The position numbers and the translations under genes were made by a program. The notes under the pieces are model-generated. The model was not told the DNA's origin and did not search any database. It was given only the letters and a program-made list of their open reading frames with translations. From Rhodococcoides kyotonense (GTDB taxonomy: Bacteria; Actinomycetota; Actinomycetes; Mycobacteriales; Mycobacteriaceae), in the NCBI RefSeq assembly GCF_900188125.1, contig NZ_FZOW01000004.1, positions 248,001-312,000 of the forward strand: a DNA stretch of 64,000 bases. Reading direction: 5' to 3'. The stretch's first letter is position 1. Every line of letters begins with the position of its first letter. Below, one piece after another: positions 2,896-63,763 of the stretch.

Positions 2896-4038
2896 TTATC
2901 TGTATCCGGCGCTCGACACCGTGTACGCCGCTTCCATCAACATCCATCCACTGAGCTGCACCGACAGGTCACGCTCGGGAACGACCGACGATCGGACCGT
3001 TCCCCCGGTGAACGTGGCGACCGTGTGGCCGGGCCCCGGCAGCCGAGCCTGAGTCTCCCACGACGCACCGAACAGTGGGTGGTCCTCGACTTCGAGTCGG
3101 TTCTCCCACGCGGCCTCGGCGGACCGAAGCACGATGTTCGCCGCCAGCGCCCGAGCACCGTCGTCCTCGTCCGTGTCACCCGGAAGCATCGTCGCGACCA
3201 GCGCCAGGTATCGAGCCAGGATTCCGTCGAACAATCCGCCGTCACCCCCACCGCTTCCGACGACGACGCCGTCGCGGCACAGATGCGTGTCGACGGCAGC
3301 GACCAACGCGTGAACGCGTTCCCGGTGCCGCGGAGCACCGAGGCGCACCGCGAGTTCGGTCTCGATACCGAGCACGACACCCTGGCAATAGCTGTACACG
3401 GCTCGGTCGACGTCACCGCCGCCCATCTGGGTCGTTCCGCGGGCTCCACTCGCGCGGATGCCGTCGAAGATCAGCCCGGTGTCGGGGTCGCGGAGCGTCG
3501 CGTCGATCCAGTCCGCCATGGCCTGTGCTCGCCACAGCCTGCCGCTTCGCGCGAGAAGAATCGACGCGGGCCCGTTCGCGGGCGTGTTGAAGAAACTATC
3601 GCCCTTGCGCCACGGGATACCGCCGCCCGAGTCGGGCATCCACGCGTCGAACAGTTCCATCTCGAGTGCCTGGATGCCCCCGCGATTGTCGACGGCATGC
3701 ATCCGCTGCGCCCGTTCGAGCGCGAGCCCGAGCCACGCCATGTCGTCGTAGTAATTGTTGGTCCACCCGCTGATGTTCCGAACACGATGTGCACGAGCGA
3801 TTTTGGCGAGCCGTCGTCGGCGCTTCGCCGTCGGTTCACGATCGGCGGCGTCGACGGCGCAGTCCAGCAGGTGTGCCTGCCACCAGTAATGCCAACGAAA
3901 GTACAGTCGCTCACGTCGGACCGGCGGCCATGCGACGACGGCCAGCGCAGTACCCGGCAGGCCCCACAACCGACGCACATGCCGTGCGACGACGGCCCCC
4001 TCCGCAGCATCTGCTCGCTGCGACCACTGCTCCTGCAT
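2896..4038 (-). CDS. Glycoside hydrolase family 76-type protein (alpha-1,6-mannan-active fold)
   Basis: This 380-residue protein has the (alpha/alpha)6 GH76 pattern: NISGWTNNYYDDMAWLGLAL with the adjacent Asp pair expected in the active site (about residues 97-98), then GGIPWRKGDSFFNTPANGPASILLAR and later YSYCQGVVLG. GH76 enzymes cleave alpha-1,6-mannosyl linkages. In Mycobacteriales a related cytosolic-looking homologue (Rv0365c) lies in this neighbourhood with no proven substrate. No signal peptide is visible, so action on mature lipomannan outside the cell is doubtful. It is monocistronic and read in the same direction as tam. Confidence 0.85.
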   Translation of the reverse strand: MQEQWSQRADAAEGAVVARHVRRLWGLPGTALAVVAWPPVRRERLYFRWHYWWQAHLLDCAVDAADREPTAKRRRRLAKIARAHRVRNISGWTNNYYDDMAWLGLALERAQRMHAVDNRGGIQALEMELFDAWMPDSGGGIPWRKGDSFFNTPANGPASILLARSGRLWRAQAMADWIDATLRDPDTGLIFDGIRASGARGTTQMGGGDVDRAVYSYCQGVVLGIETELAVRLGAPRHRERVHALVAAVDTHLCRDGVVVGSGGGDGGLFDGILARYLALVATMLPGDTDEDDGARALAANIVLRSAEAAWENRLEVEDHPLFGASWETQARLPGPGHTVATFTGGTVRSSVVPERDLSVQLSGWMLMEAAYTVSSAGYR

Positions 4039-11953: not shown

Positions 11954-12518
11954 TGCCGCTGTCGCTCTGGTCCTGGTGCTGACAGGCTGCGCGAGTAGCG
12001 AAGTCGCGCCCGCGTCACCGGACAGATCCGCGGTGGAGTCACGGATTTCCGTGGCTCCACCGGTCCCGGTGGCCGCCGCGCAGCCCGACTGGATCGAGTT
12101 GCGCTCCGCGGATGCGGTGACCTACATGAGCAGCCCGATCAATCCAGAAGGGTTGTACCGCAACAGTGATCAGGTCCTGAACCCGGTCGACGAGCTTCCT
12201 GCCTGGTGGGCCGAGAGCGGATTGCCCGGGACTGACACGCAGGAGACGGTAGTGGTCGCGGGCCACAACTACTCGAAAAGAGAAGCGCCCTTCAGGGCGC
12301 TCAGCGTCGTGCAGCCCGGAGACCGAGTCGTACTGAGCACATCGAACGGCACGCTCGACTACACCGTCGAGACCGTCGGACCACTTCCGAAGGGGTCTCT
12401 GTTGGGCGACAACGACTTACGCGCTCAGGTGCCGGGCAGGTTGATCCTGGCGAACTGCGACGTCCGGGGCGGGGAACCGACGAACGACAATTTCATCGTC
12501 GTGGCGCAGTTGACGTAG
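11940..12518 (+). CDS. Sortase-like (class E/F type) lipoprotein
   Basis: This 192-residue lipoprotein (lipobox LTGC, Cys17) has a sortase-like domain: His109 in VVVAGHNY, and Cys173 in LILANCD replacing the usual TLTC. The region where sortases carry the catalytic Arg reads EPTNDNFIVVAQL, with no Arg at the aligned place. It may be a divergent transpeptidase or an inactive binder. ATG 11940 lies inside the end of the alanine-rich gene, so the pair is translationally coupled and probably works together at the cell surface. Confidence is high for the fold and low for activity. Confidence 0.75.
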   Translation: MRRCSAAVALVLVLTGCASSEVAPASPDRSAVESRISVAPPVPVAAAQPDWIELRSADAVTYMSSPINPEGLYRNSDQVLNPVDELPAWWAESGLPGTDTQETVVVAGHNYSKREAPFRALSVVQPGDRVVLSTSNGTLDYTVETVGPLPKGSLLGDNDLRAQVPGRLILANCDVRGGEPTNDNFIVVAQLT

Positions 12519-12528
12519 GGCGCTGCGC

Positions 12529-12574
12529 CATGTGTCCGGAAATACATAGCCCTCTATGCATTTCCGGACACATG
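12529..12574. repeat. Convergent-gene palindrome, family A, copy 1
   Basis: Two 21-bp arms, starting CATGTGTCC and ending GGACACATG, with one mismatch flank a 4-base loop CCCT. It fills the space between the sortase-like gene stop (12518) and the pyrE stop (12576), so it can act as a terminator for both. Three further copies are at 20407, 27170 and 40683. Confidence 0.85.
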
Positions 12575-12575
12575 C

Positions 12576-13115
12576 CTATAGACCCAGATCCGCGAGGCCC
12601 AGCAGCGAACGGTATTCGAGACCCTCGGCGGCGATGATGCCGTCGGCCCCGGTTGCCCGGTCGACGACGGTCGCGACACCCACGACGATGGCCCCGACGT
12701 CACGCAACGCCTTCACCGCGGTGAGCGGGGAGTTACCGGTCGTGGTGGTGTCCTCGACGACCAGAACACGCTTCCCGACGACGTCGGGCCCTTCGATCTG
12801 ACGCTGCATCCCGTGCGCCTTCGCGGCCTTGCGGACGACGAACGAGTCGATGGGACGACCGGCGGCATGCATGATCGACAGCGCTACCGGATCGGCACCC
12901 ATCGTCAGTCCACCGACGGAGTCGAAGTCCCAGTCCGCGACCAGTTCGCGCATCTGAGATCCGATGAGTGCACCGGCGCGGTGGTGCAGCGTCGCGCGGC
13001 GCAGGTCGACGTAGTAGTCGGCTTCCTTACCCGACGACAGCGTCACCTTGCCGTGTACGACGGCGAGTTCACGAACGAGCTCGGCCAATTCGGCGCGCTC
13101 GGCACTGCTGGCCAT
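12576..13115 (-). CDS. pyrE: Orotate phosphoribosyltransferase
   Basis: This 179-residue enzyme joins orotate with PRPP to give OMP in pyrimidine synthesis. The PRPP-binding motif is VLVVEDTTTTGNS; other landmarks are KVTLSSGKEADYYVDLRRATL at the N-terminus and GGLTMGADPVA. ATG 13115 is chosen because it is preceded by AAGGGAT at the right distance; the frame continues 15 codons upstream without family sequence. M. tuberculosis has the homologue (Rv0382c) in the same neighbourhood near clpB. Confidence 0.93.
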   Translation of the reverse strand: MASSAERAELAELVRELAVVHGKVTLSSGKEADYYVDLRRATLHHRAGALIGSQMRELVADWDFDSVGGLTMGADPVALSIMHAAGRPIDSFVVRKAAKAHGMQRQIEGPDVVGKRVLVVEDTTTTGNSPLTAVKALRDVGAIVVGVATVVDRATGADGIIAAEGLEYRSLLGLADLGL

Positions 13116-20394: not shown

Positions 20395-20406
20395 GCAGCT
20401 TCGCTG

Positions 20407-20452
20407 CATGTGCACGAAAATACATAGCCCGCTATGCATTTTCGTGCACATG
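20407..20452. repeat. Convergent-gene palindrome, family A, copy 2
   Basis: Twenty-one-base arms (CATGTGCACG... to ...CGTGCACATG) with one mismatch flank loop CCCG. It lies between the globin-reductase stop (20394) and the acyl-CoA ligase stop (20458), which converge. It is the same family as copy 1, sharing the inner ATACATAG/CTATGCAT core, but the outer arm bases have co-varied on both sides. Confidence 0.88.
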
Positions 20453-22005: not shown

Positions 22006-22016
22006 GGCAAACAATC

Positions 22017-22030
22017 TAGAACGTGTTCTA
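22017..22030. promoter_or_regulatory. KstR operator upstream of fadD gene
   Basis: TAGAACGTGTTCTA is a perfect palindrome matching T-n2-AAC-n2-GTT-n2-A. It overlaps the final three bases of the upstream oxidoreductase gene, so the ligase has its own KstR-controlled promoter inside the tail of its neighbour. Confidence 0.9.
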
Positions 22031-23056
22031 CTGCTTCAGCAAGGCCCCGAGCTCCCGCACCCGCGCCGGCGTCGGCGCTGTCACCAGAAGCATCGTGACG
22101 CCCGCGTCCTCCCATCGCTTCACTTCACCGCGCACGTGGTCGGCGTTTCCGATGATCATCGTCTCCGCGACCATCTCGTCCGGCACCACCGCGGCAGCCT
22201 CGCCCTTACGGCCTTCACGAAAGAGAGCCGAGATCTTCTCGACCTCGGCGTCGTACCCCATCCGGCGGTAGACCTGGGCATGGAAGTTCAATTCGGGCGC
22301 GCCCATTCCACCGACGTACAGCGCGATCGTAGGCTTGAGCTGGGCAATCGCCGACGCACGGTCGTCGGTCAACACCACCTGGCACGTCGCTGCAATCTCG
22401 AAATCTTCTCGCGTCCGACGCGCACCTGGCCGGCCGAATCCCTCGTCGAGCCACGCGTTGTACATCGGCGCGAGCCGCGGCGAGTAGTAGATCGCGAGCC
22501 ACCCGTCGGCGATCTCGGCCGTCAGCGCGACGTTCTTGGGCCCTTCGGCGCCGAGCCAGATCGGCAGGTCAGCGCGGAGAGGGTGCGTGATCGGCTTGAG
22601 CGGCTTCCCGAGTCCGGTTCCACCAGCAGGCAGAGGATAGTGTGGCCCCGCGCTGGTCACTGGGCTTTCGCGAGCGAGAACCTGCCGCACGATGTCGACG
22701 TACTCGCGCGTGCGGGCGAGCGGTTTCGGAAACGGCTGCCCGTACCAGCCCTCGACCACCTGAGGTCCGGACACGCCGAGACCCAGGATCGCCCGCCCGC
22801 CGCTGAGGTGGTCGAGCGTCAGGGCATGCATCGCGCAGCTGGTCGGAGTACGTGCAGACAGCTGCGCGACGGAGGTTCCGAGGGCGACGCGCGACGTGCG
22901 GGAGCCCCACCAGGCGAGTGGCGTGAAGGCGTCGGACCCCCACGATTCCGCCGCGAAGACTGCATCGAAACCGGCCGCCTCCGCCGCGTCGACGAGCTCT
23001 CCCGTCCCCGCAGGTGGCTGAGCCCCCCAGTATCCGAGTTGCAATCCGAGCTTCAT
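22028..23056 (-). CDS. LLM-class F420-dependent oxidoreductase (Rv3520c-like)
   Basis: This 342-residue TIM-barrel luciferase-like protein begins MKLGLQLGYWGAQPPAGTGE and contains AESWGSDAFTPLAWWG, GVSGPQVVEGWYGQPF and PIWLGAEGPKNVALTAEIADGWL, very close to my recollection of Rv3520c. Such enzymes use F420 or FMN to oxidise or reduce a carbonyl or alcohol. The steroid-cluster position suggests an intermediate of sterol side-chain loss, not yet defined. ATG 23056 follows GGGAAGG. Its terminal codons overlap the KstR box of the downstream ligase. Confidence 0.9.
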   Translation of the reverse strand: MKLGLQLGYWGAQPPAGTGELVDAAEAAGFDAVFAAESWGSDAFTPLAWWGSRTSRVALGTSVAQLSARTPTSCAMHALTLDHLSGGRAILGLGVSGPQVVEGWYGQPFPKPLARTREYVDIVRQVLARESPVTSAGPHYPLPAGGTGLGKPLKPITHPLRADLPIWLGAEGPKNVALTAEIADGWLAIYYSPRLAPMYNAWLDEGFGRPGARRTREDFEIAATCQVVLTDDRASAIAQLKPTIALYVGGMGAPELNFHAQVYRRMGYDAEVEKISALFREGRKGEAAAVVPDEMVAETMIIGNADHVRGEVKRWEDAGVTMLLVTAPTPARVRELGALLKQ

Positions 23057-23117: not shown

Positions 23118-24092
23118 GTGACTTCGGTGAACGCACCACTCAGCGCACCTCTCTCTGCCCCACTGAACAATGCTTTCGACTACACGCGATCGGTCGGGCC
23201 GACCATCGGAGAATTCCTGACGGGGTTGCGTCGGGGGCAGATCCGCGGCGGCCGCGGGAGCGACGGGCGTGTCCACGTCCCGCCACCCGAATACGACTCT
23301 GCGACACAGCAACCCATCACCGATTTCGTCGACGTCGGATCCACGGGCACGGTCGTCTCGTGGGCGTGGGCACAGACGCCGTACGACGGTCAGCCGCTCG
23401 ATCGCCCGTTCGCCTTCGCGCTGATCCGGCTCGACGGGGCCGATACATCGCTGCTTCATGCCGTCGACGCAGGTTCGTCGGACGCCATGGCGACGGGCAT
23501 GCGCGTGCATGCCCGGTGGGCAGAGGATCGCGTCGGCGATATTCACGACATCGTGTGCTTCTTACCGGGAGAGCAGCCTGCGGAACGACCCGTCGAATCG
23601 GGGGAGGCCGACCCCGTCGAGATGATCACGACGCCGGTGCGGCTGGAGTACATGCATTCCGCGTCGGCCGAGGAGAGCTACTACCTTCGCGGCCTGAAGG
23701 AAGGGCGCATTCTCGGCGGGCGGACCGACTCGGAGGGCAAGGTGTACGTGCCACCGCGCGGCGCGAACCCGACCGATGGACGCCCGACGACCGAGCAGGT
23801 CGAACTACCGGATCGCGGCATCGTGACGACGTTCTGCGTCGTCAACGTTCCGTTCCTCGGGCAGCGGATCACGCCGCCGTACATCGCCGCGTACGTGCTG
23901 CTCGACGGCGCCGACATCGCGTTCCTCCATCTGATCCTCGAGTGTGATCCCGCTGATGTGCGGATGGGCATGCGCGTCGAGGCGAAGTGGAAACCTCGCG
24001 AGGCGTGGGGCTACACGCTGGAGAACATCGACTACTTCCGTCCGACGGGTGAGCCGGACGCCGAGTACGACACCTACAAGCACCACCTCTGA
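23118..24092 (+). CDS. Tandem DUF35 (OB-fold) acyl-CoA-binding protein (Rv3521-like)
   Basis: This 324-residue protein has two DUF35-type OB-fold units: the first from about 28 to 150 (IRGGRGSDGRVHVPPPE ... DIVCFLPGE) and the second from about 185 to 310 (GRILGGRTDSEGKVYVPPRG ... NIDYFRPTGE). The zinc-ribbon Cys residues usual before DUF35 are absent in both. The gene starts an operon with ltp4 and ltp3. By analogy with the known Ltp2-ChsH2(DUF35) aldolase complex it probably feeds acyl-CoA to those thiolase-like partners. The N-terminal APLSAPLSAPL comes from a short DNA repeat. Confidence 0.87.
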   Translation: MTSVNAPLSAPLSAPLNNAFDYTRSVGPTIGEFLTGLRRGQIRGGRGSDGRVHVPPPEYDSATQQPITDFVDVGSTGTVVSWAWAQTPYDGQPLDRPFAFALIRLDGADTSLLHAVDAGSSDAMATGMRVHARWAEDRVGDIHDIVCFLPGEQPAERPVESGEADPVEMITTPVRLEYMHSASAEESYYLRGLKEGRILGGRTDSEGKVYVPPRGANPTDGRPTTEQVELPDRGIVTTFCVVNVPFLGQRITPPYIAAYVLLDGADIAFLHLILECDPADVRMGMRVEAKWKPREAWGYTLENIDYFRPTGEPDAEYDTYKHHL

Positions 24093-25151: not shown

Positions 25152-26321
25152 ATGAGCAAGCAACCCGCCGCTGTTCTCGGCACCGGCCAGACGCACTACG
25201 TCGCCAAGCGGCACGACGTCTCGATGTCCGGCCTGCTGCGCGAGGCGATCGACCGTGCGATGACCGACGCCGAGGTGACGTGGGACGACATCGATGCCGT
25301 CGTCGTCGGGAAAGCTCCCGATCTGTTCGAGGGCGTCATGATGCCCGAGTTGTTCATGGCCGACGCCATCGGTGCCACGGGGAAGCCGCTGCTCCGCGTC
25401 CACACCGCCGGGTCCGTCGGCGGCTCGACCGGGGTCGTGGCGTCGTCGCTCGTGCAGTCGGGGGTGCACAGGCGAGTGCTGGCGGTGGCATGGGAGAAGC
25501 AGTCGGAGAGCAATGCCATGTGGGCGTTGTCGATTCCGATTCCGTTCAACATGCCTGTCGGCGCGGGCGCGGGAGGTTACTTCGCGCCGCACGTGCGGTC
25601 GTACATTCGACGCTCGCATGCACCGGAACACATCGGCGCGATGGTCGCCGTCAAGGACCGTCTGAATGGCGCGAAAAATCCGTATGCCCACCTGCGACAA
25701 CCGAACATAACGCTGGAATCGGTACAGGCGTCGCAAATGCTGTGGGATCCCATACGGTACGACGAGACCTGTCCGTCGTCCGATGGGGCGTGTGCCGTCG
25801 TCATCGGGGACGAGACCTCCGCGCGCGCACGGGAATCCGACGGCAAGAATGTGGCGTGGATTCACGCGACGGCGATGCGCACCGAGCCGACGACGTTCGC
25901 AGGCCGTGACCAGGTCAGCCCGCAGGCGGGCAAGGATGCCGCCGCGGCACTGTGGAAAGCAGCCGGAATCACCGATCCACTGACCGAGATCGACGCTGCT
26001 GAGATCTACGTTCCGTTCTCGTGGTTCGAGCCGATGTGGCTGGAGAACCTCGGGTTCGTGGGCGAAGGTGAGGGCTGGAAGCTGACCGAGGCCGGTGACA
26101 CCGCGATGGGAGGAACGTTGCCGGTCAACTGTTCCGGCGGCGTACTGTCGTCGAATCCGATCGGGGCGTCGGGGCTGATCCGGTTCGCGGAAGCCGCGAT
26201 GCAAGTGATGCACAGAGCGGGCGACCACCAGGTCGACGGCGCAAGGAAAGCGCTTGCCCACGCGTACGGCGGTGGATCACAATACTTTTCGATGTGGGTC
26301 GTAGGGAGCGAGCAGCCGTGA
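25152..26321 (+). CDS. ltp3: Thiolase-like lipid-transfer/aldolase protein Ltp3
   Basis: This 389-residue thiolase-superfamily protein starts directly after the ltp4 stop (TAG-ATG). Motifs: VLGTGQTHYVAKR at the N-terminus, VHTAGSVGGSTGVVASSLV where thiolases carry the nucleophile Cys (here Ala-Gly-Ser), SSDGACAVVIGDE, and NCSGGVLSSNPIGASGLIRFAEA near the C-terminus. Loss of the nucleophile argues against simple thiolysis and for an aldolase-type role, perhaps as a heterodimer with Ltp4. The last bases overlap the next gene (GTGA). Confidence 0.86.
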   Translation: MSKQPAAVLGTGQTHYVAKRHDVSMSGLLREAIDRAMTDAEVTWDDIDAVVVGKAPDLFEGVMMPELFMADAIGATGKPLLRVHTAGSVGGSTGVVASSLVQSGVHRRVLAVAWEKQSESNAMWALSIPIPFNMPVGAGAGGYFAPHVRSYIRRSHAPEHIGAMVAVKDRLNGAKNPYAHLRQPNITLESVQASQMLWDPIRYDETCPSSDGACAVVIGDETSARARESDGKNVAWIHATAMRTEPTTFAGRDQVSPQAGKDAAAALWKAAGITDPLTEIDAAEIYVPFSWFEPMWLENLGFVGEGEGWKLTEAGDTAMGGTLPVNCSGGVLSSNPIGASGLIRFAEAAMQVMHRAGDHQVDGARKALAHAYGGGSQYFSMWVVGSEQP

Positions 26322-27190
26322 AGTACACCGTCGGAATTGCGATGACGCCGTTGGACGAACTGACCACCTTGGCCAAAACCGCCGAGGAATGCGGCTTCTC
26401 GTCGATCGCACTACCGGATTCGTTGTTCTACATGGAGAGCCAGGCCGCGGACTATCCCTACACGCCCGACGGTTCGCGCATGTGGACCGCAGAGACGCCG
26501 TGGGTCGACCCGCTGATCGGTGCGGCCGCGATGGGTGCAGTGACGTCGCGCATCGAGTTCTACACGCAGGTACTGAAACTGGGTTCACGCAACCCGGTTC
26601 TTCTGGCACGCCAGGTCGGTTCGGTAGCCGCGATGACCGGCAACCGATTCGGCTTCGGCGTCGGAATCGGCTGGGCACCCGAGGAATTCGAGTGGTGCGG
26701 GGTTCCCTACGAGCGGCGAGGCAAACGCGTCGACGAGATGATCGACGTCATCAAGCTGATCCTAGGCGGCGGCATGGTCGAACATCACGGTGAGTTCTAC
26801 GACTTCGACAAGTTGCAGATGAGCCCGACGCCGACGAAACCGGTGCCGTTCTACGTCGGTGGTCATACCGACGTGGCGCTGCGACGGGCTGCCCGCGTCG
26901 GAGACGGCTGGACGTCGGCGATGATCAAGTTCGACGACCTGGTGTCCGTCATCGCCCGGCTGCGTGCGTTGCGCGTCGAATACGGAAAGGCCGACGAGCC
27001 GTTCGAGATCCAGACAGTGTGCATCGACCGCTTCGGCAAGGACGGATTCGCGGAGCTCGAGGAGGCCGGGGTCACCGACATCATCACTGTGCCCTGGGTG
27101 TTCGACGGCATCGGGTTCGACGGGCCTCTGGAGGCGAAGCAGGATTCGTTGCGACGGTTCGCTGATGCTCATGTGCACGAAAATACATAG
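26318..27190 (+). CDS. LLM-class F420-dependent oxidoreductase 2, ending inside palindrome copy 3
   Basis: This 290-residue luciferase-like oxidoreductase begins MKYTVGIAMTPLDELTTLAK and shows NRFGFGVGIGWAPEEFEW, the F420-binding family core, then PVPFYVGGHTDVALRRAARVGDGW. GTG 26318 overlaps the ltp3 stop and follows GGGAG, so it is the last gene of the DUF35-ltp4-ltp3 operon. The final five codons and TAG stop (V-H-E-N-T-stop) are supplied by the left arm of the palindrome. The substrate is probably a sterol side-chain intermediate. Confidence 0.88.
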   Translation: MKYTVGIAMTPLDELTTLAKTAEECGFSSIALPDSLFYMESQAADYPYTPDGSRMWTAETPWVDPLIGAAAMGAVTSRIEFYTQVLKLGSRNPVLLARQVGSVAAMTGNRFGFGVGIGWAPEEFEWCGVPYERRGKRVDEMIDVIKLILGGGMVEHHGEFYDFDKLQMSPTPTKPVPFYVGGHTDVALRRAARVGDGWTSAMIKFDDLVSVIARLRALRVEYGKADEPFEIQTVCIDRFGKDGFAELEEAGVTDIITVPWVFDGIGFDGPLEAKQDSLRRFADAHVHENT

Positions 27191-27215
27191 CGGGTTATGT
27201 ATTTTCGTGCACATG
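27170..27215. repeat. Convergent-gene palindrome, family A, copy 3
   Basis: Arms of 21 bases, CATGTGCACG... and ...CGTGCACATG, flank loop CGGG, with one mismatch at the loop edge. The left arm contains the stop codon of the F420-dependent oxidoreductase; the cyp125 stop is 5 bases beyond the right arm. Confidence 0.88.
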
Positions 27216-27219
27216 AGCG

Positions 27220-28485
27220 CTAGTGCCTGACGGGACAACCACCCGTGTAATCGACGCGAAACTCCTTGACCCCGTTGAGCCATCCGGACCGCAGACGCCT
27301 CGGGTCGGCGACCTTCGTGATGTCCGGGATGTTGTCGGCGATGGCGTCGAACATCAGGCCGATCTCCATGCGCGCCAGGTTGGCGCCGATGCAGTAGTGC
27401 GCGCCGTGGCCACCGAACCCGACGTGCGGGTTGGGGTTTCGGGTGATGTCGAACCGGTGCGGATCGTCGAACACGTCCTCGTCGAAGTTGGCCGATCCGT
27501 AGAACATCGCGACACGTTGGCCTGCTTTGATCGTCGTCCCGCTGAGCTCGAAATCTTCGAGAGCCGTGCGCTGGAATGCGGTGATCGGGCTTGCGTAGCG
27601 GACGATTTCGTCTGCCGTGGTGGCTGGACGCTCCTTCTTGTACAGCTCCCATTGGTCCGGGTTCGCCATGAACGCGGCCATGCCGTGCGTGATCGCGTTG
27701 CGGGTCGTCTCGTTGCCTGCGACCGCGAGGATGATGACGAAGAACCCGAACTCCTCGGGGGCCATGTGATCGCCGTCGATGTCGGCGTTGATGAGCGTGG
27801 TGATGATGTCGTCCTTCGGACATTTCCGCCGCTCGTCGGCCATCTGATAGGCGTAGCTCAAAATCTGGGTCGACGCCTCGACCGGGTCGATGTCGAAATC
27901 CGGGTCGTCGTACGACGTCATCTCGTTGGACCAATCGAAGATTTTCTTCCGGTCCTCCTGCGGAATTCCGATCAGGTCGGCGATCGCCTGCAACGGCAGT
28001 TCCGACGCGATTTCGGTGACGAAGTCGCCGTTCGGGTTCTTCGCCGCGTTCTTGACGATGATGTCTGCCCGGCGTTCGAGTTCGGCACGCAGTCCGTTGA
28101 TCGCCTTCGGCGTGAATCCCTTCGACACGAGTTTGCGCGTCTTGGTGTGTTGCGGCGCATCCTGATTCAGCATCACGAACCGTTGCAGCTCGATCTGCTC
28201 GCGTGTGATGTCGTCGTTGAAACGGGGTAGCGCGGTGTTCTCTCGACTCGAGAATATGTCGCTGCGTTTCGAGATCTCCTTGACGTCAGCATGCTTGGTG
28301 ACGACCCAGTAGCCGTCGTCGTGAAATCCGCCGACTGTCGGAGCTTGTGGGCACCACCAGATGGGCGCCGTCTTCCGCAGCTCGGCGAATTCCTTCACCG
28401 GTATGTGGCTTTCGTAGATTCCGGGATCGGTGGGGTCGAAACCCTCCGGAAGATCGGGACGCGTGAGGTCCGGTCGTACTGTCAC
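27220..28485 (-). CDS. cyp125: Steroid C26(27)-monooxygenase cytochrome P450 CYP125
   Basis: This 421-residue P450 oxidises the terminal methyl of cholesterol or cholestenone to the acid, the first side-chain step. Motifs: I-helix VIILAVAGNETTRNAI, ExxR in DEIVRYASP, and heme loop FGGHGAHYCIGANLAR (Cys near 365). WWCPQAPTVGGFHDDGYWVVTKHADVKEIS near the N-terminus matches CYP125. GTG 28485 is preferred because AGGAG lies four bases upstream; the ATG five codons earlier (28500) has the KstR box touching it and no ribosome site. It is divergent from fadA5. Confidence 0.93.
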   Translation of the reverse strand: MTVRPDLTRPDLPEGFDPTDPGIYESHIPVKEFAELRKTAPIWWCPQAPTVGGFHDDGYWVVTKHADVKEISKRSDIFSSRENTALPRFNDDITREQIELQRFVMLNQDAPQHTKTRKLVSKGFTPKAINGLRAELERRADIIVKNAAKNPNGDFVTEIASELPLQAIADLIGIPQEDRKKIFDWSNEMTSYDDPDFDIDPVEASTQILSYAYQMADERRKCPKDDIITTLINADIDGDHMAPEEFGFFVIILAVAGNETTRNAITHGMAAFMANPDQWELYKKERPATTADEIVRYASPITAFQRTALEDFELSGTTIKAGQRVAMFYGSANFDEDVFDDPHRFDITRNPNPHVGFGGHGAHYCIGANLARMEIGLMFDAIADNIPDITKVADPRRLRSGWLNGVKEFRVDYTGGCPVRH

Positions 28486-28515: not shown

Positions 28516-28569
28516 GGTTTATTCAAACACAGGGATCGATTCGGCGGAAGAATACGTTCCATTCAGATA

Positions 28570-29737
<1,168 letters not shown>

Positions 29738-35536: not shown

Positions 35537-35541
35537 CGCAC

Positions 35542-35585
35542 CCGTGCGTGCGTAGTTGGTCCAGGTTGTCACTACGCACGCACAG
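35542..35585. repeat. Convergent-gene palindrome, family B, copy 1
   Basis: Around a 4-base loop (CAGG) stand a left arm CCGTGCGTGCGTAGTTGGTC and a right arm ending CACTACGCACGCACAGG; the outer 13 bp (35544-35556 and 35571-35583) pair perfectly. It lies between fadD3 and hsaB, which converge. A second copy is at 61520. Confidence 0.82.
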
Positions 35586-35599
35586 GCGCCGAAGGCGCA

Positions 35600-39105
<3,506 letters not shown>

Positions 39106-39137
39106 CTGTGCCGCCTTCCGTGGATTCCCGTAAAGAC

Positions 39138-39151
39138 TAGAACACGTTACC
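39138..39151. promoter_or_regulatory. KstR operator 1 at the hsaA side
   Basis: TAGAACACGTTACC fits the consensus apart from the last base. It is the closest box to hsaA (33 bases from the GTG). Confidence 0.7.
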
Positions 39152-39161
39152 GCTCACTGTC

Positions 39162-39175
39162 GAGAACCCGTTCCA
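39162..39175. promoter_or_regulatory. KstR operator 2 in the hsaA-kshA gap
   Basis: GAGAACCCGTTCCA differs from the consensus in the first base only. With 39138 it forms a close pair 24 bp apart, about two helical turns, on the hsaA side. Confidence 0.6.
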
Positions 39176-39206
39176 CCGCTCTTACTAGCGCATTCCTACC
39201 CAATTC

Positions 39207-39220
39207 TATAACGTGTTCTA
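39207..39220. promoter_or_regulatory. KstR operator at the kshA promoter
   Basis: TATAACGTGTTCTA fits fully. TATAAC at its left end doubles as a -10 element; the same sequence context recurs at kstD. Confidence 0.88.
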
Positions 39221-39252
39221 CTGGGTGCGACGATCAGAACGAAGGGGTGCAC

Positions 39253-40383
39253 ATGGCCAAGATCCGTGAAATCGACGTCGGCGAGACACCGACCCGGTAC
39301 GCCCGCGGCTGGCACTGCCTCGGACTGACCACGACCTTCTCCGACGGTGAACCACACGCGGTACACGCGTTCGGAACCAAGCTCGTGGTGTTCGCCGACG
39401 CGTCGGGCAAGATCGTGGTTCTCGACGGATATTGCCGCCACATGGGCGGCGACCTCACCCAGGGAACCGTCAAAGGCGACGCCATCGCCTGCCCGTTCCA
39501 CGACTGGCGTTGGGGCGCCGACGGCAAGTGCACCGACATTCCCTATGCCCGACGGGTACCTCCGCTTGCCAGGACTCGCACGTGGACGACGCTCGAGCAG
39601 AACGGGCAGTTGTTCGTCTGGAACGACGCCGAGGGAAATCCGCCGCCCGAGGATGTGACGATCCCCCGCATCGACGGGGCGTACAGCGACGACTGGACCG
39701 AGTGGACGTGGAACTCGATGGTCATCGAGGGCGCGAACTGCCGCGAGATCATCGACAACGTCGTCGACATGGCCCATTTCTTCTACATTCACTACGCGTT
39801 CCCGACGTACTTCAAGAACGTCTTCGAGGGGCATATCGCGTCGCAGTACCTCAACACCAAGGGTCGCCCCGATATCGGCATGGCGTCGCAGTACGGGGGC
39901 GACACGCTTCTGAAATCCGAGGCGTCGTACTTCGGGCCGTCGTACATGATCAATCCGCTGATCAACATCTACGGCGGGTACGAGGTGAACAGCGTTCTGA
40001 TCAACTGCCACTACCCGATCGATCAGAACTCGTTCGTGCTGCAATGGGGAATCACCGTCAAGAAACCCGAAGGAATCGACGACGCCACGGCGACCAAGCT
40101 TGCGGAGAAGTTCACCGAGGGAATCAGCGTCGGATTTCTGCAGGACGTCGAGATCTGGAAGAACAAGACCAAGATCGACAACCCGCTGCTGTGTGAGGAG
40201 GACGGACCGGTGTACCAGCTGCGGCGCTGGTACGACCAGTTCTACGTCGACGTCGCCGACGTCACCGACACGATGACCGGGCGGTTCGAGTTCGAGGTCG
40301 ACACGACGAAGGCCAACGAGGCCTGGCAGCACGAGGTGGAGGAGAACCTCGCGCGCCAGGCGGCGGAGAAAGCAGATGCATGA
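39253..40383 (+). CDS. kshA: 3-ketosteroid 9alpha-hydroxylase oxygenase KshA
   Basis: This 376-residue Rieske non-heme iron oxygenase hydroxylates C9 of androstadienedione, which with KstD opens ring B. The Rieske cluster motifs are GYCRHMGG and CPFHDWRW; the mononuclear iron site follows in NVVDMAHFFYIHYAFP. ATG 39253 has GAAGGGG just upstream. The reductase partner KshB is not in this window. The following small Cys-rich gene overlaps its stop (ATGA). Confidence 0.95.
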   Translation: MAKIREIDVGETPTRYARGWHCLGLTTTFSDGEPHAVHAFGTKLVVFADASGKIVVLDGYCRHMGGDLTQGTVKGDAIACPFHDWRWGADGKCTDIPYARRVPPLARTRTWTTLEQNGQLFVWNDAEGNPPPEDVTIPRIDGAYSDDWTEWTWNSMVIEGANCREIIDNVVDMAHFFYIHYAFPTYFKNVFEGHIASQYLNTKGRPDIGMASQYGGDTLLKSEASYFGPSYMINPLINIYGGYEVNSVLINCHYPIDQNSFVLQWGITVKKPEGIDDATATKLAEKFTEGISVGFLQDVEIWKNKTKIDNPLLCEEDGPVYQLRRWYDQFYVDVADVTDTMTGRFEFEVDTTKANEAWQHEVEENLARQAAEKADA

Positions 40384-40703
40384 ACACGTGGGCCAAAGCT
40401 CCTGATTTCGTGAACGATCCGGCTCGGGTGCAGGAGATACGCGCCCAGACGGTCCGCGACAGGGAGCGCTACCTCGACGCGGGCCTCTCACCCGTGGAAT
40501 GTCGCGCGTGCGGGACGTGTGTTCTGGTGCGCAAGAACAGCTTCAAGCAGACGTCGGTCCAGTGGACGTCCCCGCCGTCCGAGACGTGCCCGGTGTTCCG
40601 CGACGCAGGCGACTCGGCGACGCGCGACTCGTGCCCGCGGATGCAGGATTCGATCGATCATGCGGTATTGGAGGGACTAGTCCATGTGCATGGAAATACA
40701 TAG
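40380..40703 (+). CDS. Small Cys-rich protein coupled to kshA, ending inside palindrome copy 4
   Basis: This 107-residue protein has no family I can name. It overlaps the kshA stop by four bases, so it is made with kshA. Four Cys are visible: CRACGTC (Cys41, Cys44, Cys47 by count), then ETCPVF and DSCPRMQD, enough for a metal or Fe-S site. The first 40 residues are charged and helical. The last codons (V-H-G-N-T, then TAG) come from the palindrome arm. It may be an assembly or accessory factor for the Rieske oxygenase, which is inference. Confidence 0.72.
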   Translation: MNTWAKAPDFVNDPARVQEIRAQTVRDRERYLDAGLSPVECRACGTCVLVRKNSFKQTSVQWTSPPSETCPVFRDAGDSATRDSCPRMQDSIDHAVLEGLVHVHGNT

Positions 40704-40728
40704 CGGGCTATGTATTTCCATGCACGTG
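40683..40728. repeat. Convergent-gene palindrome, family A, copy 4, holding both stop codons
   Basis: The arms (CATGTGCATGG... and ...CCATGCACGTG) flank loop CGGG. The plus-strand gene stops with TAG at 40701-40703, directly left of the loop, and the minus-strand hsaF stops with TAG at 40710-40708, directly right of it. Both genes therefore end on mirror-image codons. Confidence 0.9.
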
Positions 40729-41730
40729 CGGCGAAGCCGCCTTCAACTCCAGAGCGATGTCGATCAGCTGATCCTCCTGCCCACCGACCAACTTTCGCGC
40801 CCCGGCACGGACGAGCAGTTCGGCCGAGGACACCCCGTACCTCTCGGCTTGACGCTCGGCGTGCCGGAGGAAGCTCGAGTACACCCCGGCGTATCCCATC
40901 ATCAGCGCCTGCCGGTCGAGCAGACACTCCGCAGGCATGACGGGACGAACCACGTCCTCCGCCGCATCGCAGATCGCGAAGAAATCGATGCCCGTCTCGA
41001 TGCCGAGCTTGTCGCACACCCCGACCAACGCTTCGACCGGCGTATTGCCCGCGCCCGCACCGAATCTGCGTGCGCTGCCATCGATCTGCCGAGCCCCTGC
41101 CCGCACCGCACAGATCGAATTGGCCACTGCCAGATCGAGATTCTCGTGTCCGTGGAAGCCCACTTGCGCGTCGTCGCCCAGTTCCGCCACCAGTGCGGCG
41201 ACCCTATCGGTCACCTGCTCGAGCACCAACGCTCCCGCCGAGTCGACGACGTAGACACACTGACAACCGGCGTCCGCCATGATTCGTGCCTGCTTCGCCA
41301 GCGCCTCGGGCGGCTGCGAATGCGCCATCATCAGGAATCCGACGGTTTCGAGTCCCCGATCTCGTGCGAGTCCGAAATGCTGCACGGCCACGTCGGCCTC
41401 CGTGCAATGTGTCGCGATCCGGCAGATCGACGCGCCGTTCCCCTGCGCCGTCACGATGTCGTCCTTGACGCCGAGACCGGGCAGCATGAGGAACGCGATC
41501 TTGGCATTCTTCGCCGTGCTCGCAGCGGTCGAAATCAGCTCTTGCTCCGGCGTTTTCGAGAACCCGTAATTGAACGACGACCCACCGAGACCATCACCGT
41601 GCGTCACCTCGATGACGGGCACACCCGCGCCGTCGAGAGCTGCGACGATGCTGCGTACGTCCTCGGCAGTGAACATGTGCCGTTTGTGATGGGAACCGTC
41701 ACGCAACGACGTATCGGTCACTCTGATCAT
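40708..41730 (-). CDS. hsaF: 4-hydroxy-2-oxohexanoate aldolase HsaF
   Basis: This 340-residue class II pyruvate aldolase (DmpG family) cuts 4-hydroxy-2-oxohexanoate to pyruvate and propanal, passing propanal to HsaG. Landmarks: [17 protein letters not shown] (metal Asp, catalytic His), [34 protein letters not shown] (metal His pair) and [15 protein letters not shown]. The ATG overlaps the hsaG stop. The C-terminal SPHVHGNT tail is written by the palindrome arm, replacing the natural end, so the last residues are probably not functional. Confidence 0.94.
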
Positions 41731-45073: not shown

Positions 45074-45137
45074 GTTCTGATCCCACACCAGGCTGATTCT
45101 TCCTGGCAGAAAGCATGGACTGACGCCCATACAATTC

Positions 45138-45151
45138 TATAACGTGTTCTA
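45138..45151. promoter_or_regulatory. KstR operator at the kstD promoter
   Basis: TATAACGTGTTCTA fits fully, and TATAAC inside it serves as a -10 candidate nine bases before the kstD ATG. The 20 bases AATTCTATAACGTGTTCTAC are identical to those at kshA. Confidence 0.88.
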
Positions 45152-45152
45152 C

Positions 45153-52194: not shown

Positions 52195-52910
52195 GCACAC
52201 ACTCCGCCACCCCACACTCCGCCACCCCACCCTCAGCCACCCCACACTCAGCCACCCCACCCTCCGCCATGTCGCTCTATACGGCGATCGCGTCGCGCCG
52301 CGACGTACGAGCCGAGTTCGATGGCACCTGCATCGACGACGCTGCGCTGCACCGCATTCTGTCCGCTGCCCACCAGGCTCCCAGCGTCGGGAACACACAA
52401 CCGTGGGACTTCGTGGTGGTGCGCTCACCGGAAACGCTGTCGACGTTCGCCCGGCACGTCGGAGAGCAGCGGGGCGCGTTCGCCGAATCTCTCCCTCCGG
52501 AACGCAGGACCACGTTCGATCCGATCCGGATCGAAGGCATCGAGACCAGCCGCACCGGCGTGGTCGTCACGTACGACCCCACCCGCGGAGGATCACACAT
52601 ACTCGGGCGGGCCACGGTGGACGACACCGGCTTGTTCTCGGCGGTGCTCGCGATCGAGAACCTGTGGCTCGCCGCGGTGGCAGAGTCGATCGGCGTCGGG
52701 TGGGTGTCGTTCTACGACGAGGTGTTCCTGACCGAACTGCTCGACATTCCCGCACCGGTCAGGCCGATCGCGTGGCTGTGCGTCGGACCCGTCACAGAGT
52801 TCCAACGAACTCCGGATCTCGAGCGGTTCGGGTGGAGACACGGCCGCCCCCTGGCCGACGCGATCCATCACGAGAAGTTCGGCGGGACTCACGGAGCCTC
52901 GACCGGGTAG
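52191..52910 (+). CDS. bluB: 5,6-dimethylbenzimidazole synthase BluB (nitroreductase family)
   Basis: This protein of about 239 residues has the BluB core from MSLYTAIASRRDVRAEF onward: LHRILSAAHQAPSVGNTQPWDFVVVR, AVLAIENLWLAAVAESIGVGWVSFYDEVF and PIAWLCVGPVTEF. BluB breaks reduced FMN to make the lower ligand of vitamin B12. Upstream of that core the frame contains 15-bp repeats (S-A-T-P-x) between a start at 52191 (overlapping the GGDEF/EAL stop) and ATG 52269. The shorter start gives a canonical BluB. No B12 riboswitch is evident. Confidence 0.86.
   Translation: MSTHSATPHSATPPSATPHSATPPSAMSLYTAIASRRDVRAEFDGTCIDDAALHRILSAAHQAPSVGNTQPWDFVVVRSPETLSTFARHVGEQRGAFAESLPPERRTTFDPIRIEGIETSRTGVVVTYDPTRGGSHILGRATVDDTGLFSAVLAIENLWLAAVAESIGVGWVSFYDEVFLTELLDIPAPVRPIAWLCVGPVTEFQRTPDLERFGWRHGRPLADAIHHEKFGGTHGASTG
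52200..52271. repeat. 15-bp tandem repeats at the bluB start
   Basis: About five units of CACTCCGCCACCCCA with small substitutions run in frame (H/P-S-A-T-P). They end at the core ATG at 52269, so the region is either an N-terminal extension or a variable leader. Confidence 0.8.
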
Positions 52911-63671: not shown

Positions 63672-63706
63672 AGTGAAACCCCAGCTCTCGAGATGACTTT
63701 TACATC

Positions 63707-63720
63707 TAGAACGTGTTCTA
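63707..63720. promoter_or_regulatory. KstR operator between fadE34 and kstR
   Basis: TAGAACGTGTTCTA, a perfect palindrome, lies 35 bases from the fadE34 GTG and 43 from kstR, giving autoregulation as in M. tuberculosis. Confidence 0.9.
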
Positions 63721-63763
63721 ATACGCTAGCTGGTCAAGCTCGAGGTAAGAAGGAAAACCAACG

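Follow-up and report, generated by a model that had tools for sequence, protein, structure and literature searches.

A dispersed palindrome family docked against stop codons in Rhodococcoides kyotonense, with one copy ending two convergent genes

Results

One palindrome carries the stop codons of two convergent genes

The window, by which we mean the whole stretch of 64,000 nucleotides that was analysed, contains the features listed in Table 1. The kshA stretch of the first ORF of this locus, positions 39256 to 40383, matches 4qdc (E 1.9e-181) and also structure 2zyl, and the true kshA start is probably located downstream of the ORF start. The predicted product of the small gene that follows contains several cysteines (ECRACGTC, ETCPVF, DSCPRM). 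Searches of Pfam and NCBIfam, with E limits of 0.01 and 1e-5 respectively, gave no match for this gene, which is present in 14 of the 37 genomes of the genus, own genome included, and may encode an unnamed partner of the steroid oxygenase. It is faced by hsaF. The homology of HsaF to 4jn6 stops at residue 331 of 340, and hence the HsaF tail lies outside the conserved part of the protein.

Table 1. Positions of genes, palindrome copies and their parts in the window.
Feature	Position	Strand	Remarks
Copy 1	12529-12574	.	sortase-like stop 12516-12518, pyrE-like stop 12576-12578; native stops retained
Copy 2	20407-20452	.	native stops retained
Copy 3	27170-27215	.	left-arm TAG 27188-27190 ends F420-dependent oxidoreductase-like gene (26294-27190), ...ADAHVHENT
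ORF containing kshA	39082-40383	+	3-ketosteroid 9alpha-hydroxylase oxygenase
Small gene	40380-40703	+	107 aa; overlaps kshA 3′ end; final residues arm-encoded
Copy 4, left arm CATGTGCATGGAAATACATAG	40683-40703	+	3′ TAG 40701-40703 is the small-gene stop
Copy 4, loop CGGG	40704-40707	.	sole spacer of both stop codons, 4 nt
Copy 4, right arm CTATGTATTTCCATGCACGTG	40708-40728	-	5′ CTA 40708-40710 is the hsaF TAG stop
Mini-hairpin GCGGC-GAA-GCCGC beside copy 4	40728-40740	.	translated within hsaF tail
hsaF	40708-41730	-	4-hydroxy-2-oxovalerate aldolase; TIGR03217, 512 bits

The junction between the small gene and hsaF is occupied by copy 4, a palindrome of 46 bp whose 21-nt arms enclose a 4-nt loop and pair with a single mismatch in 21 pairs (a G-U pair in RNA). 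An earlier note on this DNA had proposed that the left arm ends with the TAG of the small gene, that the right arm opens with the CTA of hsaF, that only the 4-base loop lies between both stops, and that one palindrome ends the translation of both genes. Direct reading of the sequence confirmed each of these points: as read from the ORFs, the small-gene protein ends ...GLVHVHGNT and HsaF ends ...ASPHVHGNT, both frames terminate inside copy 4, and the gap from stop to stop is 4 nt. RNA of the region 40660-40760 has a predicted folding energy of -50.1 kcal/mol, against a mean of -29.4 kcal/mol for shuffled sequences (z -6.57; none of 200 shuffles matched it). A fold of this strength is not expected by chance, and a stable RNA hairpin 3′ of a gene, of the kind expected of an intrinsic terminator, is predicted at copy 4.

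The orthologues of both genes end differently when the element is absent. In 12 element-free genomes the small gene ends ILSVPD, ILSVPSD or similar. hsaF was found at E <1e-100 in four other genomes; in the three without the element it ends ELQKEAVG, ELQKEAAVG and ELQREAAAPVV, and in the one with the element, G006, it ends PHVHENT on the same arm TAG. None of the 12 small-gene and none of the three hsaF orthologues without the element ends in VHGNT. Since all of them end differently (12/12 and 3/3), the arms wrote the final codons of both proteins. The earlier note had also supposed that the arms interrupt otherwise longer proteins, and in this it was mistaken. Counted from the last shared residues, the small protein of the window is 1-2 residues and HsaF 2-5 residues longer than in element-free relatives; because both proteins exceed their relatives in length, nothing is truncated at copy 4.

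G006 is the only relative found with the element at the copy 4 junction, and the small gene and hsaF were found as immediate convergent neighbours only in the window genome and in G006. The distance between the two genes is 3.8 kb in G031 and 4.5 kb in G009, and in G034 a partial, doubtful hsaF match at 2.4 kb is all that was found. The left arm of G006 is mutated and ends the small gene 10 nt earlier, which leaves a gap of 14 nt between the stops. The exact mirror is therefore not conserved.

Two other kinds of motif were observed in the window. Five motifs like TAGAACGTGTTCTA, which we take to resemble the KstR operator of cholesterol genes, are located at 22011-22031, 28564-28584, 39201-39221, 45132-45152 and 63701-63721, and a 15-bp unit, CACACTCCGCCACCC, is present in head-to-tail copies at 52198-52272.

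Copies, variants and range of the family

A palindrome scan of the 64-kb window (arm length minus twice the mismatches at least 15, loop 3-12) found four palindromes, and all four are copies of the element. The 6.3-Mb genome contains 124 copies of the core at up to 3 mismatches and none of the reversed pattern used as control. With up to 2 mismatches the core is present in 6 of the 37 genomes of the genus and in 5 of 301 genomes sampled from the family, all five belonging to this genus, both counts including the own genome. In the named genome collection, from which the own genome is possibly excluded, two species alone gave the exact core: Rhodococcus sp. KRD197, with 17 stretches, and Rhodococcoides kyotonense, with 3. 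A covariance model built on 32 copies gave matches in 29 of the 37 genus genomes, own included, at E 0.001 (one in G036, four in G009), and under stricter filters in 12 of 201 family genomes, representing 3 of 31 genera. Species-typical versions are GAATACATAA in G031, AAATACGTCC in G034 and CATGTGAACGG in G027. None of the 4227 Rfam families matched the window at the curated threshold, and among the titles and abstract openings listed for searches of the open-licence PMC literature, some of which had many more matches than those listed, there was no description of the repeat or of a mirror-image double stop, which is weak evidence.

Several variants of the element were observed. In long-loop copies an interior of 36-38 nt like AGGAGTGGAGCCTGCGGAACGACC, or its reverse complement, lies between the arms (L223:1478-1549, L224:1461-1532 and L225:1455-1526; also L222 and L226), and this interior looks like another hairpin seated in the loop. 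The window itself has stretches like AGGAGTGGAGCCTGCGGAACGACC at 3429-3454 and 23566-23591. In KRD197 (L174, NZ_JABFAO010000003.1) the palindrome of the copy 3 junction is extended to more than 60 bp, TTAGGCACTGAAGCGCATG...CATGCGCTTCAGTGCCTAA, and TAG/CTA is mirrored at its outer ends too. In addition, GC-rich mini-hairpins (GCGGC-TTC-GCCGC, GCAGC-TTC-GCTGC and similar) lie between stop codon and palindrome, in the window beside copy 4 (Table 1) and at 20395-20407 and 12519-12528, and also at other copies. These mini-hairpins are in places conserved across species where the central palindrome differs.

Most copies lie between convergent genes or 3′ of one gene, close to the stop codons

We read 99 copies with their flanks; since these were drawn from the best-matching places, weak copies are under-represented among them, and the 12 regions that were opened separately are not counted. 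Gene directions were assigned by a script that scores codon usage in the flanks, not taken from annotation; this scoring missed the small kshA-coupled gene at copy 4, and that side was set by hand to the TAG of the element. By this procedure 62 copies are located between convergent, 30 between tandem and 4 between divergent genes, and 3 were left untyped (one flank <150 bp). The 56 gene junctions of the window, taken from a gene list that includes two hand-added genes, comprise 11 convergent, 35 tandem and 10 divergent ones, a distribution that differs from that of the copies (Fisher p 1e-7). Thus, the copies lie mostly between convergent genes or 3′ of one gene. Not every gene-end hairpin in the window belongs to the family, since the convergent junction at 35537-35599 contains a hairpin, GTGCGTGCGTAGT...ACTACGCACGCAC, that is unrelated in sequence.

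The stop codons of the facing genes are tightly placed. Among 155 such genes, the stop lies 0-16 nt outside the palindrome in 113, within the near arm in 39 and at a greater distance in 3, two of the latter being doubtful gene calls (C24:155191, offset -211; C26:18487, offset -274). In 152 cases, therefore, the stop falls between 16 nt before the palindrome and the loop, and no facing frame (0/155) runs beyond the loop. The 39 stops within the arm consist of 31 on the arm TAG and 8 at variant stops, such as in CATAG. At copy 3 only one side ends in this manner, the P450-like gene on the other side ending outside the element, at 27220. Eighteen of the 20 fetched copies of KRD197 and kyotonense had enough flank; 12 of them are convergent, 5 tandem and 1 divergent, and 28 of their 29 facing stops fall in the same range, 3 of them on the arm TAG.

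The arm TAG ends a fifth of the facing genes

The arm TAG serves as the stop codon in 31 of the 155 genes, roughly one in five. The 31 predicted proteins end H-V-H-E/G-N-T/P, with HVH in 28 of them and YVH, PVH or HVP in the others. A blastp comparison of their last 250 residues, tails removed, gave no mutual match at E 0.001, and by this test the 31 proteins appear to be mutually unrelated. In the consensus arm one frame meets the TAG and the remaining two run open from end to end of the palindrome; all 31 genes enter in the closed frame, for which the naive chance is (1/3)^31. Because 31 genes use the closed frame and the 8 others end at variant stops, random fusion would not give this pattern.

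Both stops are on the arm TAG at 5 of the 99 copies, copy 4 included, where 2.3 are expected (Poisson p 0.09) if the two sides are taken as independent at a rate of 24 in 124 sides of the 62 convergent copies. Two frequent events can thus suffice to produce the mirror arrangement, with no need for a special device. In favour of a selected device coupling two gene ends are the five perfect mirrors, copy 4 included, and the presence of the element at the same junction in G006, but the excess over expectation is of the size just given, the small gene of G006 stops before the mirror position, and in the other relatives examined both genes end elsewhere. We consider such a device highly improbable.

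The junction of copy 3 gives an indication of how the arm TAG may have come into use. KRD197, G031 and G034 contain a palindrome of the family at this junction and have their own stop before it (KYL, TYF, KYVR). In the alignment the window genome lacks ~20 bp, and with them the final codons of the gene, its native stop and the spacer. This deletion, at a single junction, argues for a fail-safe reading, in which the arm TAG looks like a back-up stop that takes over after loss of the native stop. Tail lengths were compared in an orthologue table reduced from 63 to 61 matches by dropping those with <65% identity or >25 unaligned residues. For the three arm-TAG genes open to comparison, 12 of 13 comparisons differ, the exception being hsaF of G006, where the element is present; 21 other facing genes gave 48 comparisons, of which 45 agree, C9:44560_R and C25:12657_L sharing one orthologue in the table. 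The palindrome-family labels in this table come from a regular expression and undercount: the five rows labelled 'other long' comprise two family variants, two of a third-kind palindrome (C25:228893 both sides, in G027) and one of another palindrome (G034), and some rows labelled 'none' do contain a palindrome (C25:260540 in G009).

According to the fail-safe reading, a small deletion would remove the native stop, so that the frame would enter the arm and end on the TAG just before the loop, adding H-V-H-E/G-N-T to the protein. Fusions entering in the other frames would read through the hairpin, and none was seen. Copy 4 would then represent loss of the native stop with rescue by the arm on both sides.

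The stem is conserved by paired changes

In an alignment of 32 sequences 96.7% of the cells pair, and double changes are present at 10 of the 21 pairs. Cells changed on both sides number 54, where shuffles give 15.3 and slid structures no more than 10, and none of 500 shuffles reaches any of the five covariation measures, in a set in which most of the sequences come from one genome and with a shuffle control that ignores relatedness. The copies of G031, G034 and G027 are the most divergent in sequence, and their pairing is largely retained. The alignment indicates that the stem of the palindrome has been kept by compensatory changes.

Positions G4 T5 G6, A13 A14 T15, C17 and T19, and most of their partners, are invariant in the 32 sequences. 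A hairpin does not need these invariant bases, which implies that a sequence-specific constraint or recent copying is also present; the extra conservation could point to a DNA-binding protein or to such copying. Bases conserved beyond pairing, together with species-typical variants that recall the dialects described for the uptake sequences of Neisseriaceae (PMC3630211), would also fit a DNA-uptake-type or protein-binding signal whose paired copies form hairpins by chance. Against this, a search for half-sites with 2 mismatches allowed gave 130 on the forward and 127 on the reverse strand, about as many as there are palindromes, and in the 12 regions opened every half-site except C6:193211 is paired within 60 bp. 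Moreover, uptake signals are described as generally reaching at least 1,000 per genome (PMC1852404). The half-site numbers and the pairing in the opened regions led us to reject an uptake signal, and we regard a signal of either type as very unlikely.

Turnover at orthologous junctions

Both flanking genes of 10 window-genome junctions could be located in one or more relatives. No long palindrome is present at junction C25:43301 in G027 (8 bp between stops), at C25:233468 in G009 (7 bp), or at the copy 2 junction in G027 (10 bp) and G009 (29 bp). A second palindrome family, AGTGGCRCGGTTRAGTG (L220 and L221, that is G009:C1:118539 and G017:C99:3537), shares some of its gene-end junctions with the present one. 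The second family has a 10-nt interior, and its exact copies number 31 in G009, 29 in G017, 1 in G027 and 0 in the window genome. At C25:228893 a third kind of palindrome is present in G027, and the mini-hairpin beside the right stop of this junction is nearly identical in all three species. The finding of other palindromes at the same junctions indicates that gene-end hairpins are common in the genus and that the particular family changes.

Presence and absence at conserved junctions (C25:43301, C25:233468 and copy 2) would be compatible with a selfish REP- or MITE-like palindrome that inserts beyond stops, where it does least harm, its effects on expression being incidental. The species-typical variants and copy numbers fit the same explanation, as does the restriction of the exact core to 20 stretches of two named species, own genome possibly excluded. 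A search restricted to Y1 found no Y1/RAYT transposase (PF01797) in the window genome, the control being positive in 5 of 14 known genomes, and this rules out a RAYT-driven REP. Also, no arm-bounded transposon was present in the 12 regions opened, and the compensatory changes described above argue that the stem is kept. Taken together, we hold a purely selfish palindrome to be somewhat unlikely. Empty sites were found, and their flanks are too diverged to define a target-site duplication. Two exact half-sites 2.6 kb apart (C6:190629 and C6:193211) had been candidates for the ends of a transposon, which was ruled out on opening the region: C6:190629 has its partner half-site 38 bp beyond, and C6:193211 stands unpaired, with the interior motif seen in long-loop copies in front of it.

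Comparison with known systems

Uptake sequences, REP elements, RU-1 and the Rickettsia palindromic elements (RPEs) each have one aspect in common with the element, and uptake sequences, REP elements and RPEs each have a testable defining feature that the present family lacks. The inverted uptake-sequence terminators of Neisseria and Pasteurellaceae are described as dispersed hairpins that likewise favour tail-to-tail genes and are thought to end transcription (PMC1852404). The present family differs from them in that abundant single arm sites were not found, the stem is 21 bp long and the arm contains a stop that genes use. REP elements (GTAG, CGTC) are described as short dispersed palindromes 3′ of genes, mainly unidirectional or convergent ones (PMC3733652), and our element, too, is dispersed, intergenic and 3′ of genes. 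In contrast to REP it has no Y1/RAYT, is a near-perfect palindrome of 46 bp instead of units of 20-40 bp, and is tightly docked to stops; a GTAG/CGTC tag is absent from the element end, the consensus beginning CATGTGCACGGAAATACATAGC....

Enterobacterial RU-1, of 127 bp, is reported likewise to remove the normal stop and to add a repeat-encoded C-terminal tail, as in an amidase lengthened from 461 to 496 residues (PMC2759123). Compared with RU-1 as described there, the tail added by the present family is ~6 residues long, is always read in one frame, occurs on 31 genes in one genome and can be used at both ends. RPEs, of ~150 bp, are described as palindromic repeats that encode an in-frame part of unrelated proteins, fused inside genes (PMC10969869), whereas the present family stops translation before the loop and none of the 155 facing frames is translated through it. 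Finally, tR2 of E. coli is likewise a hairpin near a stop codon, but closeness to the stop is described as making tR2 fail (PMC4824070), and in the present family this closeness is the rule.

Discussion

We think it probable that the element belongs to a dispersed palindrome family, common across the genus, placed against stop codons and providing two-way 3′-end hairpins for the facing genes. The stem would form at the 3′ ends of both transcripts. In RNA it would then be a two-sided barrier, keeping 3′ exonucleases from both mRNA ends and/or preventing run-on into the opposing gene, to which intrinsic or factor-dependent termination is perhaps added.

The nearest alternative in mechanism is a classical bidirectional intrinsic terminator. 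In it, RNA polymerase would be released in both directions by the inner stem CATAG-loop-CTATG together with the U-rich arm UAUUU that comes after it, and the closeness of the stops would be due to short intergenic space alone. The convergent location and the strong, covarying stem are in line with this, as is the pairing of an A-rich left arm with a U-rich right arm on both strands. These U-rich bases lie inside the arm, though, and the stem is not followed by a T run: a consensus scan of 40300-41000 on both strands found no U-tract or terminator-like site. In addition, tR2 of E. coli is reported to be repressed by ribosomes when the stop is less than ~27 nt away (PMC4824070). Both stops of copy 4 are within the hairpin, a position at which a terminator in E. 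coli is repressed by ribosomes, and the 152 facing stops that fall in the stem or no more than 16 nt from it are in this range as well. Also, 30 of the 96 typed copies lie between tandem genes and hence follow one gene only. Plain intrinsic termination is thus a poor fit, given the lack of a U-tract and stops closer than ~27 nt, and we judge the classical terminator unlikely. M. tuberculosis is reported to have few canonical intrinsic terminators (PMC10937400), which implies that related high-GC bacteria may end transcripts otherwise. Together, the lack of a U-tract, the tight stops and the scarcity of such terminators in M. tuberculosis lead us to favour, with moderate confidence, a two-way 3′-end barrier with or without termination. 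This barrier, placed at the level of RNA, is put forward with less assurance than the fail-safe stop.

A broader proposal, which we make tentatively, is that the element belongs to a stop-docked hairpin cassette, in which interchangeable palindrome families are gained, lost or swapped as units at orthologous 3′ ends and carry a fail-safe stop in the used frame. If this is true, 31 unrelated proteins of one cell would share a C-terminal hexapeptide.

Dispersed palindromes are usually treated as extragenic. The DNA described here is both a 3′-end hairpin and coding sequence that ends proteins, and it presents a clear case of a repeat that rewrites many protein C-termini, namely those of a fifth of the facing genes examined. 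The exchange of unrelated palindromes at the same orthologous junction constitutes a tractable record of element turnover. The spacing between stop and hairpin (0-16 nt, or inside) is the reverse of that expected for a working terminator from the ribosome-interference rule of E. coli, and the family thereby offers about 100 natural constructs on the ends of convergent transcripts in high-GC actinobacteria.
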